A program made the translations under genes and the position numbers. The notes under the pieces were generated by a model. That model was given only the letters and a program-made list of their open reading frames with translations. It was not told the DNA's origin and ran no database searches. Of a stretch of DNA of 64,000 nt, positions 9,152 to 50,413 are shown piece by piece; position 1 is the stretch's first letter, and each line of letters opens with the position of its first letter. The stretch is from Nitrospirota bacterium (GTDB lineage Bacteria > Nitrospirota > Thermodesulfovibrionia > Thermodesulfovibrionales > Dissulfurispiraceae). The stretch is taken from assembly GCA_009773415.1 (NCBI GenBank), contig WSNO01000019.1, forward strand, positions 1-64,000, written 5' to 3'.

Positions 9152-9918
9152 CAGAAGCACCCGAGTTCGCACTGCTTTACTTTTATCTTCAATTCATCAG
9201 CAGCCGCACCGACCAATGCATACGCGATGCCGATTTCCTCGGCCACCGCACGAGCAGCGGTGCAGGTGATCCTGCCGTTTTCTGCACGCTCCGTAAGCAA
9301 TGCAGCAAGCTTCTTTTTTATCAGAATATCATCCATGCGTTGTATGAGGCGGTGCATGCCATCAGTGGCGGCTCCGGAAGAGAGGTTGCTCAGTGGTACG
9401 GAGATATCAGCCGGTGAGGCATCCAATGGCTGTTCTGCTGTGATTGATACAATAAGATCCGCAAGCTGCAATGCTTTGCGAGCCGATGGCTTGCCGGAAG
9501 CCGCGCCGAAGCGAACGATACATATTACACCATCAGGCCGGAGAAACTCAATCGGACTGTTCCCTTCAACTAAGATGATGTCGAGATCGGAGAGCATATC
9601 GACCGCCTGCGGCAAAAGATCCTGAAGCTCCTCCGGGGGCGCCTGTATCCACAGCACCCGCTCCGCACCCGCGGCGTGGTACTCTGCTGTATCCTTGTCG
9701 GGCTGCGTGATCAGATGAGGAGCATCGGTTATGCTCGCATAAAAGGCGGTTTTCGTATATTTGATTGCGCCGAGGCGTTTGGGCGGTTTCAGAAGAACGA
9801 GGGTGCTGTCAGGAGGAGAGGGTGCGGCGAGAGAGCGAATGAATGCCGCTCCGAGCGTGGTTTTGCCGATGTTGCTCTTCTCTCCGCCGATGCAGAGAAT
9901 AAGGGGACGGGTCATCAT
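9151..9918 (-). CDS. MobB-like P-loop nucleotide-binding protein with a C-terminal cysteine motif
   Basis: A protein of about 255 residues, first gene of the tetrapyrrole operon. A P-loop GGEKSNIGKTT lies near the N-terminus; the segments DTAEYHAAGAERVLWIQ and DIILVEGNSPIEFLRPD resemble MobB, the GTP-binding adapter of molybdopterin guanine dinucleotide synthesis. The last 50 or so residues (from KLAALLTERAENGRITC) look like a small helical domain and end in CELGCF. I cannot name a reaction for it. Start: two adjacent ATGs at 9918 and 9915, and a TTG at 9936; none has a convincing ribosome site. Its stop overlaps ccsA by one base. The 146 bases upstream to topA hold nothing I can identify with confidence. 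Confidence 0.65.
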   Translation of the reverse strand: MMTRPLILCIGGEKSNIGKTTLGAAFIRSLAAPSPPDSTLVLLKPPKRLGAIKYTKTAFYASITDAPHLITQPDKDTAEYHAAGAERVLWIQAPPEELQDLLPQAVDMLSDLDIILVEGNSPIEFLRPDGVICIVRFGAASGKPSARKALQLADLIVSITAEQPLDASPADISVPLSNLSSGAATDGMHRLIQRMDDILIKKKLAALLTERAENGRITCTAARAVAEEIGIAYALVGAAADELKIKVKQCELGCF

Positions 9919-40184: not shown

Positions 40185-42391
40185 TCACGCCTTTGAGCCG
40201 GGAGCCGGCTCTGCCGAGAGCCTCTCACTTCAAACGTTACAGCATCAAGAACCGAATTGTTCTTGTTTTTTACGGCAAGCAGATACTTCCCCTCTTCAGG
40301 TTTCCAGAGCACACGTTGTTCGGCTCCTGCAATCTGAAGATTGTTCAAATGCCAATGAAAATCACCTGATCCTGAGGACCGAAAAAAGAGTGCCTGATTG
40401 TCTGAGGGAATATCAGGATCCAGCGCTATGATCGTACCGTCGGGCGGATATATAATCCGGGGTCTTCCGGACTCTTCCGCGGATGAGACGGCGGAAGTCT
40501 CGGTTCCGGAGAGGAACAATTCCTGACGGGAACTGTCGTTTCGCGAGGCAAACACGACGTCATGTGCGATGACGCCTTCCGGTACCTTCGGCTGATGGCT
40601 TGGCGTGTTCCGGTGAAGCATGTTCATCAGTTCTATCCATAAGGGAGCTGCACCAGTGATGCCCGAAACATTCCACATCGGTTCGCCGTTGAAGTTGCCG
40701 ACCCACACACCGACCGTATAGCGCCTGGAGAAGCCGATGCACCAGTTGTCGCGCATATCCTTGCTGGTGCCAGTCTTTACACCAGTCCAGAAACGGGTGG
40801 CCAGCGGATTTTCGAATCCGAAGGTGAGGCTCCGGGCAGCCCGGTCAGAGAGGATATCCGCAATGATGAACGCGGCCCCTGTGTTCATGACGACCCTGGA
40901 GGGTTTCGTTTTTGCGGAGGCGGAAATCCTGAGCGGGCTCCATGTCCCGTTATTGGCGAGCGTTCGGAAGGCATTAACCAGCTCATACAGGCTTACATCG
41001 ACAGCGCCGAGGGCCATGGAGAATCCATAGTAGTCTCCGTCGTTGATATCCTCAAATCCAAGTCTGCGCAGACGTTCTGCGAAGGCATCAGGACCGACCA
41101 GCATGAGCGTCCTGACAGCAGGAATGTTCAACGAAGAGGAAAGGCTTGTCCGAACGCTCACAGGCCCCTTGAAATCGTTGTCATAGTTGCGCGGTACATA
41201 AAGGCCGGTCTCTGTGGTGATAGTAAGAGGAGAATCGTCAAGCAGGGACGCAGCGGTGAGAAGATGCTGCTCAAGCGCCAGTTCATAGAGAAACGGCTTG
41301 AGTGTGGAGCCTGCCTGTCGTTTTGCCCTGATGCCGTCCACATGGCGGGCGCTTGCATCGGCTCCCGCGCTCGCGACATATGCAAGGATTTCACCGTTTT
41401 GGTTGTCGGCGATGAGTACCGCCCCGTCGTGAACGTTCTGGTGTCTGAGCTGCCGCAGTTGGTGACTCAGCATTTCGGAAGCGGTTCGCTGTAGTTTTGC
41501 ATCCAGCGTCGTTGTCGTGCGCAAAGTCTTCGTGCTCAGCAACTGACGAGCGACATGCGGGGCAAGCGCCGCCCGTTGCCGCAGCATATAGCTGCCGTTC
41601 AGGCGGCTTGCGGAAAGTTCCTTCAGTGAGGCGCATGCCGTCGGCACTTTCATGGCTTCGGCAAGCGCGCATGCGCGGGAGGTCACGGTTTCATCGGGGG
41701 CATTGGGAGCCCGTATCAGGACAGCCAGCAGCAGGGCCTCGGCATTGCTCAGACCGTCCGGCTCCTTGTCAAACACGCCGCGGGAGACCGCAGCGATTCC
41801 CTGCAATTCTCCGCGAAACGACACAAGGTTCAGATAGGATTCGAGAATCTGTTCCTTCGTCCAGGTCTCTTCAAGATTGCGAGCCGCCCGAATCTGAACC
41901 CACTTCTGCTCCACCGAACGGCGCTTCGCGCCCTTCGGCTTCAATTCCGTATCGAGCATTGCTGCGAGCTGCATCGAAATGGTGCTGGCGCCGCGTTGCT
42001 GCCCGTTCAACAGGTTCTGAACAGCAGATGATGCGAGGGCCGTCCAGTCGACTCCCCTATGCGCATAGAAGCGCCGGTCTTCCGAGTGCAGGACCGCCGC
42101 AATCAGGGCAGGGGATATATCCTTCAAGCCTGTCCAGTCGAGCCTTCGGCCATGTGCATCGACACGAAGCTCGTGGATGATTTCTCCGTGACGATCGAGC
42201 AAAATCGCGTCAGAGCTGTGATAGCGGTTTCTTGCGTCTTCATACGAAACAAATTCAGCCGAGGCAGGCACATAGAGGCGCAGAATACAGAACGCCAGCA
42301 GGCAGCAGGCAATGCATAGCGGGCAGCGCATCAACGCGGATATAATCTCTCGTCTGTCATCCAGCAGTTGATTTCCGAATCTGTTTTTCAT
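40181..42391 (-). CDS. pbpC: Penicillin-binding protein 1C
   Basis: A 736-residue bifunctional wall enzyme. After an N-terminal membrane anchor (residues 22-40) comes a GT51 glycosyltransferase with the catalytic glutamate in VLHSEDRRFYAHRGVDW near 100 and GASTISMQLA; then a transpeptidase with the SXXK serine in RQAGSTLKPFLYEL near 362, SSSLNIPA, and KTGTS near 548; then a C-terminal BiPBP_C domain (about 650-725). It overlaps the stop of the alpha-2-macroglobulin gene by four bases, the same pairing as pbpC-yfhM in E. coli, where the macroglobulin protects the cell when the wall is breached and PbpC repairs it. Confidence 0.95.
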   Translation of the reverse strand: MKNRFGNQLLDDRREIISALMRCPLCIACCLLAFCILRLYVPASAEFVSYEDARNRYHSSDAILLDRHGEIIHELRVDAHGRRLDWTGLKDISPALIAAVLHSEDRRFYAHRGVDWTALASSAVQNLLNGQQRGASTISMQLAAMLDTELKPKGAKRRSVEQKWVQIRAARNLEETWTKEQILESYLNLVSFRGELQGIAAVSRGVFDKEPDGLSNAEALLLAVLIRAPNAPDETVTSRACALAEAMKVPTACASLKELSASRLNGSYMLRQRAALAPHVARQLLSTKTLRTTTTLDAKLQRTASEMLSHQLRQLRHQNVHDGAVLIADNQNGEILAYVASAGADASARHVDGIRAKRQAGSTLKPFLYELALEQHLLTAASLLDDSPLTITTETGLYVPRNYDNDFKGPVSVRTSLSSSLNIPAVRTLMLVGPDAFAERLRRLGFEDINDGDYYGFSMALGAVDVSLYELVNAFRTLANNGTWSPLRISASAKTKPSRVVMNTGAAFIIADILSDRAARSLTFGFENPLATRFWTGVKTGTSKDMRDNWCIGFSRRYTVGVWVGNFNGEPMWNVSGITGAAPLWIELMNMLHRNTPSHQPKVPEGVIAHDVVFASRNDSSRQELFLSGTETSAVSSAEESGRPRIIYPPDGTIIALDPDIPSDNQALFFRSSGSGDFHWHLNNLQIAGAEQRVLWKPEEGKYLLAVKNKNNSVLDAVTFEVRGSRQSRLPAQRRD

Positions 42392-45300
42392 TTGACTTCA
42401 AGCGTACCGTTCGGGCGTTCGCCGAACATTTCCGGTGAATACATCGCCTCGACGCGAGTCGGGGGAAGGTTGAAAGTCCCTTCATTGTTGAGACGGACGG
42501 TATATTCACAGGACCACGTCCCCTTCGGGACGTATTCATAATACGACCGGTACGTCTCGAACGACCGCTCCTCAAAGACCGGCCAACTCCCGCTTGTCGG
42601 CTGCTCATTCTTCGTCAGCAGTGAAGAATCCCGTCCGAGACCGCCTCCGAGGATAACTGCTCCCGCCGGTATCGGATCGCTCACGACAACCCACGTCATG
42701 TCCGCCTGTGATTCCATGTCGAGCCGCACGCGAACAACGTCACCGCGCGACCAGACGCCGCTTTGCCGTTGCTGAACAGGGGTCAGCGTCTTTTTGATCC
42801 GGTAACCGCTGCTGAGCGTTTCCTTCAGCGGGACTGCGGCGAGACTCTGAACGCTCACCCACGGTTTGCCGCTGCCATGATGGGTCACTGACAGTTGCGC
42901 TGCGCCTTTAGGCCAGGACAGACCGAGCGTGCCGCCTTCGGGATGCGCATTCCAGTCGAGCGTCTTCGACGACTGTCCATTAACACCGGCGACCGTGCTT
43001 CCTCCGACAGACGCCGACTCGAACTTCTGCGAAAACTTCTCCATGGCAAGCACGCCCCATGCATTCGCGGTGGTTGTGTTCCATGCACCGCGGAGCTGCC
43101 GTCCGAGTGCGCCGCGTATAAGACGCGGCATATCTTCTGTCCATGAAGTGTTCTGCAGGAAGGCGAGAATTGTTTTTAGCGCATTCACGTCGCCCGAGAT
43201 CATCAGCCACCAGAGCGAATCGGAACGCTCAGTCGAAAAGCCCATGGACGTGCCCTGAACATTGAGCCGCGAGCGGATAATCTGTTCGGTTTCCCTGAGT
43301 CGCTGCGCGCCGTTCTGAATGCCCTGTACGCGGAGGAGAATGCTGTTCCAGTCGAGCACCGCCGATGTCGGCCAGAGATTCGGATCGATGGATATGCTGC
43401 CCAGCATCTCCGGTCTTGCTTTGCCGGTTCTCGACAGCGCTTCCATTGCGGCGAGTTTCCGGACGGTGAGATCAGCAGTTGGCAGAGGACTGTGACGGAT
43501 GATTTTCACGTTGATGAATGCTTCAAGACCGCTTTCGAGCCTGCCGGACAGTGCTTCCGGTATTTTCCATCCCGCTTCGTCTGCTATGGAATACACATAT
43601 GCGGTGAGTGTGGGATCTCCCAAGCGCATGCTCGGGAAGTATTTCAGCAGGCCGTCTCCGTCAAGATACGACGGCATCGTCGCTACCAGCTGATCCCACA
43701 TCGACGAATCCCTGAGTGCCACGGCACGTGAAACCTTCTGTTCCAGGCAGGTGTAAGGGTAATTCCGCATGTGCCACGCAACGCCGTCAAGGCTATCCGC
43801 CAGCCGCGGCTGCAGTGATATCTTCAACCCGCCCTTGCCTGTAAGGGCGTCTCTCGGTCTTTCGACAGGAATGCTCAGGGGATCTTTTACCTGTGCTATG
43901 GCAGCCTGAAACGGTCTGACCGGCACTGCCGATACAACCTTCTGCGTGATCGAGATCCGGTCGCTGATGTCCGTTCCCTTTGCCTGCGCAGCGACTGTCC
44001 ACGTCAGTTTCTCCGTATTCGCAGGGGCAGTCACATCCCAGCCGACCGTTTTTGCCTGTCCTGCGCCGATCGATTTGGTCAGCGCGGGCAGATTTGGATC
44101 TGCCGATGAAGTTGCCAAAAGCTCCACTGTCATATCATGAGATGTTGTATTGCGGACAGTGAAGTGCGCCCGGAACCTGTCTCCCTCGCGCACCACTTGG
44201 GGCAGGCCGGAATGGATTATCAGGTCTTGGAAACTTCGAATGCTTGCCTGTCCTGTGCCGAAGAGGCTGCTCCCACCTGTAGCGACCGCAACGATGCGGA
44301 AACTGGTAATCGAATCGTTGAGCGGAATCGTAACCTTTGCCTCTCCTTTGCCGTTGAGCGCGACCCGTCCTTTCCAGAGGAGCAGCGTGTTGAACAGTTC
44401 CCGCGTTGTCTTGTTTCCGCCTCCGCCGCCATGCGGCATCGCCTTCAGACCGAAGTGGCGCCTGCCGATGATCTGTATCTGGGCAGTGGAGGTCTGCACT
44501 TCATATCCGCGACGACCCATCATTGTCTCCAGGAGGTTCCAACTTTTGTTCGGCATCAGTTCGAGCAGTCCCTCGTCAACAGCCGCTATCGCCACCTCGC
44601 TGCCTTTCGGCGGAGCCTTGCCCTTTGCTGTTTTCACCGCAACGGTTATGATCGCGTTATCGCGCACCTTATAGATTTTTTTGTCGGTATTTACGTTCAC
44701 CTTCAGCTCGTGCGGCTTCCATCCGACCTTTATTTCCGCGATGCCGAGCTTATATGCCGGCTTGCCGAGGTCGACGAGCGCCGTCGGCTGCATCTCCTCG
44801 ACACGTCCGCGCACCACGAGGGCCGAGATGAAGACGTTCGGAGCGAAGGCCGGTTTCATAGGGACTTCAAATGAGGGGTTTTTGCCGGAGATTTTCTTAA
44901 CAAACGTTTCCAGAATGCCTTCACGTTCGACAGTTACGAGGGCTGTTGCCTCGCGAAACGGCATGCGCACCTGGAACTTAGCCGTGTCGCCTGATTCATA
45001 GTGCTTCTTCTCGGGAAGTACGTCGATGCGATCATTATCGGAGACATCGAACCACCACTCCCCCTTTGCCGCGATCCAAACGTCGCAGTTGGCGGCTGCC
45101 GAGTTTCCCTCGGCATCGCTTGCCGTCGCCTGGAGAATGACATTTCCGGAGACCGATGCGCTGACGTCACAGAATAACATGCCTTTCGCGTCGGTTTTTC
45201 CTGAGCAGAGCGCGCCGATCCGTTTTGTTTCGGTGATGTGCTCATATGAGTAGAATCCTCCTACCAGTCGCTTTCTGTGCGAATAATTCTTTCGCTGGAA

Positions 45301-48282
45301 CAGGTCGACAGCGACGTGGACGCCGCTTGCGGGCTTGCCTCCCAGGTCGAGCGCTGCGACCCGGAATCTGAAAGAGTCTTTCGACGCTGCCCAGTTGTCG
45401 GGCCTGATGCCGAGAATCACGTGGGCAGGCCAGAGCGGGATGCGTGACGACACGGTCTGCACCTCGCTATTTGGGTCGCGGAACTCGAGCTCCGCCATCA
45501 AATCCTGCGGAGTATCGGTTCTGGACAACTCCCGGACCGTCGTCCTGACCGCTCCGGCCTCATCAAGCATCAGCTGAACCGTCTTTGCAGGAGCGCCAGC
45601 AGACGGGCGTTCATCCGGCTCATCCCCGCCTCCATCAATATTGTCCGAGAAGTCCGAATGTCCGGTAATTCCGGTCTTCACCTTGCCGTTTGCAAATGTG
45701 AAATCATCATACTCATCAAAAAAGACGGGGCGGGGCTGTATTGCCGTGCGCAGCTGCACCGGCTCATTGCTCGCGCCTCCTCCGGCGAGATAGGTCACGA
45801 GGAGATCGAGGGTCAGCTCCGACGTGTTGACAGCAGGTTTTTCCGGCGGCTGTATGATGCCTCGCATGAGCGGAACGCGGAATTCCTCGATGCGGAAACT
45901 TCCGGAGTTCCAGCGCGATGCCCGCCAATCGTCATCATCAGCTTCTTCATCGCCGCCGGCGCGTTTGCGTGTCTTCAGCGGTTTCGTATCCCCGGTGAAC
46001 AGAACGATGTTGTAAACACCGAGCTTTGCGTCCTTCGGAATCGGCCACGCAGTTTCCGCAATGCCGCCGGCATCCCATTTCAGCGGAAACTCATACTTCT
46101 GATCGCTGCCGCTGTGCTGTATCGAGACGGTTTTCGGCAGCAGCTTCGAATCGGCGGAAACGACTCCCGTCATGCTGTGGCGGCGGATAATGTGTTTCAT
46201 TGAGACGGTCTCTCCCGCTCTGAGCAGGGACCGGTCAAGCACCGAGTGAGCCATTATCTGCCTCGGCGCAGCGGCTGTCGGGAGGTTGAAGCGCCACGAC
46301 TCAATGCCTTTGTCCCAGCTCGAATGAACAAAGGTGAGATCATTTTCCTTCTTCGCGAATACGTAAATGCCGCCGTTCAGATCCCGAAGCGCCTCCATCT
46401 GCGGATAATCATAGTGGCTGTCGTCGTCTGTCTTTGCAACCTTGCACCGGGGGATGTTTGACGGAGAAGGCAGTTCCCTGCGAATACGAGCAAGGCCGTT
46501 GCCGTCGGTCTTTCCGCTCCAGATGACCTTCCCGCGGCAGTCGCGCAGGGCAACGTCAGCAAGAGCCACTGGTTCGGCCGTGTCCAGAGTCGTCACCCAG
46601 ACCAGCGACGACTCCCGTCCCCACTTGAAGTGCGCGCTCATATTGGTGACCAGCACAGTTGTCGGGACATACATTGGTTTCTGTTTCGCAAGCAGCGCCG
46701 AACCAAGCAGTCTGCTCTCCATTTCGACAACATAAAAACCGGGTTCATGCAGCGGAATCCCGACGACCTCAAACGCTTTGTCGCCGCCCGGCTTTGGCAG
46801 GTCGAACTCGCGTGCGGTCTGACCAGGTTTGAAGATGGAATTCTGACGGCCGGCACTTTTCACCGCGCGCAGCCATTCAATGATTCTGCCGGCTTCCGTG
46901 TCCGGGTCGATTTTGCGAACTTTACCCTTGAGGCCGCTGACGAAGGTGTCCGCTTTCTTTTTCATTGAATCCGGCAGGATAGATGCAATCGCTTCCGCGG
47001 CAGTGGCGGTCTTGTCGAGCGCACCGTCTTTTATTTTTTCGAGCGTGCCCCGCTCATCAAGTGCCGCTATTCTCGTTTTGACCGCAGGTTCGAGGTTGCG
47101 CAACGTGACCGGCAGCACCGCGCTTCCTTTCAGTTCGAGTATTCCGAAGCGTGCGTTGAATTTGGCGAGCGGCGGATACCCGCTGGTCCTGACCGTGAGA
47201 GGGAATTTGTCGCGCGTTATCAGTGTCCGTCCCGCTTCATCTATCATGTTTCTGGGAATGTCGAGCGTGAACGACGCACTCTCGGGAAAGGGACCGTTGA
47301 ACCGGACCGACGATACCGTCTGCAGCTTCTGCTTTTCCTGCTCCTTCGGCGCTTCGCCCGCATCGTCTCCTTCATTATCCCCGAGGACGGACGGATAACT
47401 TCTGTTGTGCGGACCCCGGAGCTTCACTTTTTCGGCGAATAAGATAGGAACGGGTGCTGAAAAACGCAGCTCCATCGGAAGAATCGGAATGCAGTTCGCG
47501 TCCTTCTTTTCCCGGCCGCAGCTGAACTGGACCGTAAACTCCGCACGGACTTTATACGGCAGAATCTGATCTTGTCCGGTTTCGACGCCGGTGCGGGCGG
47601 CGACTCCCCTGCCCCAGACAAGATTGACCTCTGCATTATTGGGGAAGCGCCGTTTTGCCTGAATGACGCACAACGGCTGCTTCGGGTCGGGATTGGTCTT
47701 GCTGATGTAGCCTGTTGCTTCGAGAATCTTTTTTTGTTCGATTCCCTCGAGAATTCTGATTCCTATCTTTTCTCCGACTCCCTTTACGGTGAAGAAAACA
47801 TGCTCAAGGACCGATTCTCTTGTAGCTGCAGCGTCAAGTACCAGAACAAAGGCCTGTTCTTCCTCGATGAGGTTTCCTTGATAGGGACGCATGTCTCGCA
47901 CGGCTGGTCCGCCGGTCGAGAAACTGAAGGAGTTCGGTCCGATGACGGCACTGCCGGCAAGCGTTCTGAGATCATTTCTCAGAGTGAAAGTGCATTGATG
48001 GCCGGCCGGAAGGTCTTCTAAGAAGTCAAATACCCAGTTGCGGCTGTCTGCCCAGCGTCCGCTTCCCTGAAAAGGGCAGGCGAAGGAAAAGGGATCAGTC
48101 AGTCGGGGGTCGCCGAAGGGCACCATCGGCTCGGAAAAGCGTACCGTAACCTGGCGCACATCCTTAGCCGCCCCCTGCGGGGTGAAGAACTCTACTTTTG
48201 CGTCGAATCCTGCCGACGCGGCAGAAGCGAATAAGATGCTAATACAGAGAATGACAGCAATGGCAAAGCATTTTCGATGCAT
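42388..48282 (-). CDS. Bacterial alpha-2-macroglobulin
   Basis: A very large periplasmic protease trap, 1964 residues, longer than E. coli YfhM (about 1650). It has a signal peptide (MHRKCFAIAVILCISILFASA) but no lipobox cysteine after it, so it is probably soluble or held otherwise, unlike lipoprotein YfhM. The thioester motif CLEQ is intact at 43738-43749, within YPYTCLEQKVSRAVA, so covalent capture of attacking proteases is expected. The alpha-helical toroid follows it, and the final 130 residues form the beta-rich receptor-like domain. The ATG at 48282 has GGAGGG five bases upstream. It is the first gene of a pair with pbpC. Confidence 0.94.
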   Translation of the reverse strand: MHRKCFAIAVILCISILFASAASAGFDAKVEFFTPQGAAKDVRQVTVRFSEPMVPFGDPRLTDPFSFACPFQGSGRWADSRNWVFDFLEDLPAGHQCTFTLRNDLRTLAGSAVIGPNSFSFSTGGPAVRDMRPYQGNLIEEEQAFVLVLDAAATRESVLEHVFFTVKGVGEKIGIRILEGIEQKKILEATGYISKTNPDPKQPLCVIQAKRRFPNNAEVNLVWGRGVAARTGVETGQDQILPYKVRAEFTVQFSCGREKKDANCIPILPMELRFSAPVPILFAEKVKLRGPHNRSYPSVLGDNEGDDAGEAPKEQEKQKLQTVSSVRFNGPFPESASFTLDIPRNMIDEAGRTLITRDKFPLTVRTSGYPPLAKFNARFGILELKGSAVLPVTLRNLEPAVKTRIAALDERGTLEKIKDGALDKTATAAEAIASILPDSMKKKADTFVSGLKGKVRKIDPDTEAGRIIEWLRAVKSAGRQNSIFKPGQTAREFDLPKPGGDKAFEVVGIPLHEPGFYVVEMESRLLGSALLAKQKPMYVPTTVLVTNMSAHFKWGRESSLVWVTTLDTAEPVALADVALRDCRGKVIWSGKTDGNGLARIRRELPSPSNIPRCKVAKTDDDSHYDYPQMEALRDLNGGIYVFAKKENDLTFVHSSWDKGIESWRFNLPTAAAPRQIMAHSVLDRSLLRAGETVSMKHIIRRHSMTGVVSADSKLLPKTVSIQHSGSDQKYEFPLKWDAGGIAETAWPIPKDAKLGVYNIVLFTGDTKPLKTRKRAGGDEEADDDDWRASRWNSGSFRIEEFRVPLMRGIIQPPEKPAVNTSELTLDLLVTYLAGGGASNEPVQLRTAIQPRPVFFDEYDDFTFANGKVKTGITGHSDFSDNIDGGGDEPDERPSAGAPAKTVQLMLDEAGAVRTTVRELSRTDTPQDLMAELEFRDPNSEVQTVSSRIPLWPAHVILGIRPDNWAASKDSFRFRVAALDLGGKPASGVHVAVDLFQRKNYSHRKRLVGGFYSYEHITETKRIGALCSGKTDAKGMLFCDVSASVSGNVILQATASDAEGNSAAANCDVWIAAKGEWWFDVSDNDRIDVLPEKKHYESGDTAKFQVRMPFREATALVTVEREGILETFVKKISGKNPSFEVPMKPAFAPNVFISALVVRGRVEEMQPTALVDLGKPAYKLGIAEIKVGWKPHELKVNVNTDKKIYKVRDNAIITVAVKTAKGKAPPKGSEVAIAAVDEGLLELMPNKSWNLLETMMGRRGYEVQTSTAQIQIIGRRHFGLKAMPHGGGGGNKTTRELFNTLLLWKGRVALNGKGEAKVTIPLNDSITSFRIVAVATGGSSLFGTGQASIRSFQDLIIHSGLPQVVREGDRFRAHFTVRNTTSHDMTVELLATSSADPNLPALTKSIGAGQAKTVGWDVTAPANTEKLTWTVAAQAKGTDISDRISITQKVVSAVPVRPFQAAIAQVKDPLSIPVERPRDALTGKGGLKISLQPRLADSLDGVAWHMRNYPYTCLEQKVSRAVALRDSSMWDQLVATMPSYLDGDGLLKYFPSMRLGDPTLTAYVYSIADEAGWKIPEALSGRLESGLEAFINVKIIRHSPLPTADLTVRKLAAMEALSRTGKARPEMLGSISIDPNLWPTSAVLDWNSILLRVQGIQNGAQRLRETEQIIRSRLNVQGTSMGFSTERSDSLWWLMISGDVNALKTILAFLQNTSWTEDMPRLIRGALGRQLRGAWNTTTANAWGVLAMEKFSQKFESASVGGSTVAGVNGQSSKTLDWNAHPEGGTLGLSWPKGAAQLSVTHHGSGKPWVSVQSLAAVPLKETLSSGYRIKKTLTPVQQRQSGVWSRGDVVRVRLDMESQADMTWVVVSDPIPAGAVILGGGLGRDSSLLTKNEQPTSGSWPVFEERSFETYRSYYEYVPKGTWSCEYTVRLNNEGTFNLPPTRVEAMYSPEMFGERPNGTLEVK

Positions 48283-48393
48283 AGTTCCCTCCGGCAAAAC
48301 TGAACAGCAAGAACGCAGAAATCAAACGACACCCCCCAACGAGCATCTGCCTTCTCTGGTTGAATGAGCGTCACGTCTCAGTTGCTATACTCA

Positions 48394-48501: not shown

Positions 48502-49312
48502 ATGCTGACACTCAAGGCACCTGCAAAGATCAACTGGACGCTTGCCGTGCTCGCCAAACGGATTGACGGCTACCACGACATTCAGTCCCTGATGCAGACC
48601 ATCAGTCTGTACGACAGTCTCGCATTTGCGAAATCCAGGCACCTCCGGGTTGTGTCCAGCCTCACTATTCCGAATGAGCGGAACCTCGTCTACCGGGCGG
48701 CCCAGGCACTTCGCGCCGAGACAGCGTGTTCACTCGGCGCGACTATTACGCTTTCCAAGGATATCCCAACCGGTGCTGGACTGGGCGGCGGCAGCAGCGA
48801 TGCAGCCGCGACACTAAAAGGCCTGAATCAGCTTTGGCAGCTCGGTCTTTCAGTCGGAGAGCTGGCCGAAATCGGAGCTGCTATCGGCTCTGATGTGCCC
48901 TTTTTAGAGGTGTGTGTTGCTGCTTGTTTATCCTCTTTTCGGGGTGTCGACGGTATGGGCATATTCTGCACTGGCTGAGCGACGCGCCCGCGATTTGACA
49001 AATAGTCAGGATAACCTTGATAATATACAGCTATTGTTTGATATCCTTGAAAAAAAGGACTTTTCCCGTAGTCAGCCGTGTCTTCGCAATGACCTTGAAG
49101 AGGTGGTTTCGGCTAAGCATCCTGTTATCGGAGAAATCAGACAGCAGCTGCTTGATGCAGGTGCCCTCGCGGCCCGCATGAGCGGGAGCGGTTCGACCGT
49201 TTTCGGGCTGTTTCCCGATGAAAAAAAGGCGGAAGATGCATCGCTGAGGTTTCCCGGATGCTGGACGCGTGTGGTCCGGACATTGACGTATGCGGACGAC
49301 TGCCGGGGCTGA
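48502..49312 (+). pseudogene. ispE: 4-diphosphocytidyl-2-C-methyl-D-erythritol kinase, broken by internal deletion and frameshift
   Basis: IspE phosphorylates CDP-methylerythritol in the MEP isoprenoid pathway. The N-terminal 134 residues are normal (LKAPAKINWTLAVLAKRIDGYH; ATP motif PTGAGLGGGSSDAAATL near residue 92; AAIGSDVPF), then frame 1 reads on in unrelated sequence to a stop at 48978. The rest continues in the next frame from about 48914 (LLLVYPLFGVSTVWAYSALAE to MSGSGSTVFGLFPDEKKAE) and ends at 49312. Between VPF and LLLVYP only about ten bases remain where the family has some 20-25 residues. So roughly 60 bases are missing and the frame is shifted. Either a real lesion or an assembly error; the locus (ispE, tRNA-Gln, prs, rplY, pth) is the canonical one. 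Confidence 0.85.
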
Positions 49313-49326
49313 CGGGCAGCTTTATT

Positions 49327-49398
49327 TGGGGCGTCGACAAGCGGCAAGTCAGCAGATTTTGGATCTGCCATCCCCAGGTTCGAATCCTGGCGCCCCAG
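49327..49398 (+). tRNA. tRNA-Gln (anticodon TTG)
   Basis: A 72-base cloverleaf: acceptor TGGGGCG pairs with CGCCCCA (49391-49397) plus discriminator G; anticodon stem GCAGA/TCTGC encloses the loop TTTTGGA, giving anticodon TTG; the T arm contains GGTTCGAATCC. The 3' CCA is not encoded. It lies between ispE and prs, as in many Proteobacteria. Confidence 0.96.
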
Positions 49399-49471
49399 TC
49401 TTTTCAGGGTATTAACGGCGGCAAGAGAACAGCCGCCCGGCAGTAATTTTTTCTCCATCGAGGAGTAGAGC

Positions 49472-50413
49472 ATGCCAAATGGAATCAAGGTTCTGACCGG
49501 GAACGCGAACAGGCAGCTGGCGCTGAAGGTATGCGAACATATCGACATTCCTCTCTGCGACGCAAAGGTTGCGACATTCAGCGACGGCGAAATCAATATA
49601 AGCATTAATGAGAATGTGCGTGGTTTCGATGTCTTTGTCATTCAGTCGACCTGCACCCCTGGCAACCGGAATCTTATGGAGCTTTTGCTCATGCTTGACG
49701 CCCTTCGACGCTCCTCTGCGCGCCGTGTGACGGCGGTTATTCCCTACTATGGCTATGCTCGCCAGGATCGCAAAGTGCAGCCGCGCGTGCCGATTTCAGC
49801 GAAGCTGGTTGCGGACTTGCTGACTGCAGCAGGCGCGCATCGTATTCTGACTATAGATCTTCATGCCGGCCAGATTCAGGGCTTTTTCAATATTCCGGTG
49901 GATCATCTGTACGCCGCGCCGGTATTGCACGAATATATTCACAACTGTGATTTCAAGGATCTTGTTATCGTCTCTCCTGACGCAGGCGGCGCAGAGCGCG
50001 CCCGCGATTTTGCAAAGAGGCTTGATGCATCACTTGCCCTTATCGACAAGCGCCGCGAGATGGCAAATGTGTCAAAAATCATGCATGTCATCGGTGATGT
50101 GAAAGGGAAAGACGCAATTATCCTGGACGACATGATTGACACAGCGGGGACGACGACGCAGGCAGCGCAGGCATTGAAGGAAAATGGAGCCAATCGGGTT
50201 TTTGCGGCGTGCACCCATGCAGTGCTGTCCGGCCCGGCGATTGAGCGGATTAACAGTTCGGCTCTGGAGGGGGTTGTCGCGACCGATACGATTGCGCTTG
50301 AAGAAAAAATGATCCAGTGCAGCAAACTGAAAGTAGTCAGTATAGCGAAGTTGCTGGCAGAGGCGATCACGCGTATTCACGACGAGTCGTCCGTCAGTTC
50401 ATTATTTGATTAA
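49472..50413 (+). CDS. prs: Ribose-phosphate pyrophosphokinase
   Basis: A 313-residue class I PRPP synthase making the activated ribose for nucleotides, histidine, tryptophan and [21 protein letters not shown] opens it; [16 protein letters not shown], the ATP flexible loop region [17 protein letters not shown] near residue 93, [11 protein letters not shown] near 130 and the PRPP-binding [17 protein letters not shown] near 213 are all present. GAGGAG precedes the ATG. ADP allosteric inhibition is typical of this class. It sits after tRNA-Gln and 68 bases before rplY. Confidence 0.97.

Follow-up and report, generated by a model that had tools for sequence, protein, structure and literature searches.

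A 65-bp frame-breaking gap in the only detectable ispE of a Nitrospirota genome is very probably an assembly error

The window analysed here (64,000 nucleotides, contig C45 of a Nitrospirota genome of 61 contigs and 2.46 Mb) carries ispE in two pieces, raising the question of whether the organism has lost a step of the MEP pathway of isoprenoid synthesis or whether the gene was damaged in the assembly.

Extent of the ispE gap

The lesion was sized against the intact ispE of G001 (locus L018), the sole genome of the same genus compared. Starting with the ATG at 48502, the N-terminal part agrees with IspE as far as ...AAIGSDVPF(F) and ends at 48905/48906; to this point it is normal, as a previous sequence-only reading had described. 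The congener gene runs ...GSDVPFFFAGPGARVEGRGEVVTPMPMTQSYPLLLVYPSFGISTAWAY, and the C-terminal part here reads RCVLLLVYPLFGVST... from 48908, with its stop codon at 49310-49312. The earlier statement that the halves lie in different frames is confirmed by the positions of the open reading frames and of their TIGR00154 matches (Table 1), and the GHMP N and C domains (Pfam) fall one in each piece.

In a one-gap DNA alignment, a gap of 65 bp gives 74 matches to G001 over 104 bases, and no other length between 56 and 74 exceeds 57. The gene is 811 bp long here versus 876 bp in G001, a difference of exactly 65, and because this length is 2 mod 3, the reading frame changes. The gap sits between TTTTT (ending at 48905) and AGAGG (starting at 48906) and takes out about 21–22 residues as aligned to G001, including the near-invariant G-R/K-G-E motif; the loss had been put at 20–25 residues, which was right. 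The roughly ten bases previously regarded as what is left of the missing part turned out not to be a remnant, as AGAGGTGTGTG is the beginning of the C half, where Q-R-C-V is matched by Q-S-Y-P in the congener. An origin in two separate deletions that left AGAGGTG as a survivor of the GRGE region appeared possible by eye and was set aside, since the single 65-bp gap accounts for the length difference as well as for the alignment.

The gene order ispE-tRNA-Gln-prs is common to this genome and the congener. An alpha-2-macroglobulin-like ORF of 1969 aa (assigned by eye; window positions 42388-48297, minus strand) adjoins ispE, and the congener has a galE-like gene at that position.

Table 1. Positions of the features discussed (window coordinates unless a contig is named)
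Feature	Position	Strand	Basis
ispE N-terminal part (GHMP kinase N domain, PTGAGLGGGSSDAA loop, GSDVPF), frame 1	48502..48906	+	TIGR00154 positions 3-143, 146.9 bits; PF00288 2.6e-19
Junction of the 65-bp gap relative to the congener	48905..48906	+	One-gap alignment and length difference; 100 intact ispE sequences
ispE C-terminal part (GHMP kinase C domain), frame 2	48908..49312	+	TIGR00154 positions 166-265; PF08544 4.1e-15
tRNA-Gln (TTG), conserved neighbour	49326..49400	+	ARAGORN; DNA alignment to G001
prs (ribose-phosphate pyrophosphokinase), intact conserved neighbour, control	49472..50413	+	
rpoA (RNA polymerase alpha), two frames	G000:C23 12754-13263 and 13224-13607		L149 (same coordinates), L247, L248

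Conservation and predicted function of the two halves

IspE (TIGR00154; structures from E. coli, 1oj4, and Aquifex aeolicus, 2v2q/2v8p) is 4-diphosphocytidyl-2-C-methyl-D-erythritol kinase. Both halves here are orthologous to it and have in common with it the phosphate-binding loop, the GSDVP segment and the C-terminal GHMP domain. The N part contains the P-x-G-A-G-L-G-G-G-S-S-D-A-A loop of the GHMP N domain and closes with GSDVPF, a G-(S/A)-D-V-P segment whose Asp is the catalytic aspartate known from IspE structures. Unlike in known IspE, the region of the GRGE motif is taken out by the 65-bp gap and the C half is out of frame: the nearly invariant G-(R/K)-G-(E/D) segment downstream of GSDVP falls inside the gap, none of 100 homologues, drawn from Nitrospirota and further phyla, lacks the segment that spans it, and no single frame runs through the GHMP C domain, the C part being in frame 2. 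The protein predicted from the deposited gene would hardly be a working IspE.

A split or recoded enzyme, with the halves joined by frameshifting or bypassing or made as two subunits, might be imagined from the fact that the two halves abut and that a GTG start is available for the C half at 48914. However, the lost residues, among them the G-R/K-G-E segment of nearly all 100 homologues, are in neither half, recoding is unable to supply absent bases, and the arrangement is seen in no relative, making such an enzyme extremely unlikely. Programmed frameshifting or bypass was ruled out, as the sequence itself is missing, and no mechanism that would let the deposited pieces function is credible.

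Loss of ispE across the lineage was also ruled out. The gene is over the cut-off in 57 of the 59 relatives (58 of 60 when the window's own genome is counted) and occurs as two adjacent fragments in none of the 59, the lesion being unique to this genome among them. The two relatives in which no ispE was found, G023 and G028, are members of the same family and are drafts of 92–95% completeness; the absence is probably due to their incompleteness.

Both halves had been described as well conserved, and this is borne out by their dN to the congener (0.160 for the N half and 0.168 for the C half), which is like that of a functional gene, and by the concentration of differences in third codon positions (0.57 and 0.43, respectively). 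The control gene prs, with a dN to the congener of 0.104, is functional-like. No decay is apparent in either half, which excludes an old decay but, at such a distance, not a very recent mutation.

The ispE step in the context of the genome

The genes dxs, dxr, ispD, ispF, ispG and ispH are all present, open and over the cut-off, and IspE is the sole broken step of the MEP pathway in the genome. It had been proposed that a true lesion would call for a further ispE copy, the mevalonate route or scavenging, and neither of the first two was found: with 21.5 kb, in 13 contigs below 3 kb, reading as N, a TIGR00154 search of the 2.46-Mb genome gave no second ispE, HMG-CoA reductase was not detected, and the GHMP N domain, searched to E = 1, returned one chance match and otherwise no further GHMP kinase, mevalonate kinase included. 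These short contigs, masked as a whole, make up the N in the sequence, and N runs are absent from the readable stretches. A GHMP-type homoserine kinase (ThrB) is also apparently absent, the broken ispE being the only GHMP kinase detectable; threonine may be made with a different kinase, or the ThrB gene may be within the masked short contigs.

Taken alone, ispE presents a paradox, because the MEP pathway is otherwise complete and no replacement was detected. A real and recent deletion, either fixed or common among the cells sampled, would be compatible with the clean gap and, if very recent, with the conservation of both halves; survival would depend on an undetected copy (the masked contigs could hide another fragment) or on import of precursors, or else the lineage would be dying. 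However, the pathway is complete both before and after the IspE step, leaving the later enzymes without substrate, the genome has neither another detectable GHMP kinase nor HMG-CoA reductase, and the same assembly bears a lesion in rpoA that is impossible in a living cell, as described below. We consider a real deletion very unlikely, and a version of it in which isoprenoids are made or acquired with a MEP pathway lacking only IspE, by means of an unrelated CDP-ME kinase or precursor uptake, highly improbable.

A second clean gap, in rpoA, and the origin of both

On contig C23, rpoA is interrupted by a clean 37-bp gap and frameshift in the conserved N-terminal domain. In the congener, VNF and YDRLVMEVWTDG are separated by 37 bases (WVEKARVGRATD plus one base), all of which are missing here, and VNF runs straight into (H)DRLVMEVWTDG in a different frame. 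A whole-genome search gave no other rpoA, and neither fragment reaches the cut-off of 227.8 bits (scores of 216.9 and 137.8). By comparison, 28 of 29 relatives, including G001, have rpoA as one open frame that passes the cut-off; the exception, G005, is a draft of 81% completeness in which nothing matched. To our knowledge, no bacterium lives without rpoA, for whose product nothing else can stand in, and a change of frame midway through the N-terminal domain would not be tolerated. The gap is therefore technical and not biological, and the rpoA break is almost certainly an assembly error; the assembly accordingly includes spurious deletions of a few dozen bases within essential, single-copy genes.

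The frame-break survey extended over 878 kb of the assembly (of which 21.5 kb is N, whole contigs shorter than 3 kb), with 129 kb covered by homology to the protein frames of G001 and G006 (same family, one contig) and to the loci of relatives. These 129 kb contain three genuine reading-frame breaks, two in the core genes ispE and rpoA and one in a response-regulator/GGDEF gene; the frame-break rate corresponds to these three events, the last of which was called against a single relative. The GGDEF gene (L133, contig C17 about 9482-9516, minus strand) is split by one inserted base (AGGAAAGTTTTTC) versus a family member, and this insertion may be either an error or a real pseudogene. Apparent breaks at L136, L153 and L150 were discarded as antisense shadow ORFs or a tRNA-overlapping frame.

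The ispE gap is read as an artefact because the sole rpoA carries the same class of clean short deletion with frameshift. On this analogy, the 65-bp gap is very probably an assembly error and not a mutation; one artefact is no proof of the other, and errors of assembly or sequencing more commonly take forms other than clean gaps of 37 and 65 bp whose junctions show no obvious repeat. A false short-cut or a falsely closed join in the contig would produce the ispE gap, and in the organism ispE would most likely be one intact gene at the same place, with the MEP pathway operating normally. We infer a technical cause for both gaps and expect the reads to contain the missing bases. Of the two origins offered by the sequence-only reading, recent or artefactual, the rpoA lesion favours the latter, and its description of ispE as broken holds for the deposited sequence and probably not for the organism.

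A mixture of strains, in which most cells have an intact ispE and the consensus took a minor deletion allele, would be in keeping with the fragmentation of the genome (61 contigs, many of 1–3 kb), as expected of a metagenome bin, and with its closest matches in the named collection, which are Nitrospirota, mostly Thermodesulfovibrionia, and nearly all MAGs. However, an allele with the rpoA deletion is not viable even as a minority. Because such an allele cannot live, the rpoA site requires a technical chimera, and the same would account for ispE; we regard a strain mixture as highly unlikely.

Despite a rating of 100% complete and 0.24% contaminated, the genome has its sole ispE and its sole rpoA both broken by clean gaps, and claims of missing steps or pseudogenes made from it require read support. 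The ispE gap itself probably has no biological significance and is useful as a warning. For public genomes of bacteria, it is documented that many spurious pseudogenes stem from errors of assembly (PMC11017572). Compared with typical homopolymer indels, the gaps reported here are larger (37 and 65 bp); like the pseudogenes made by assembly (PMC11017572), the lesions in ispE and rpoA are clean, frame-breaking gaps in indispensable single-copy genes that show no decay.
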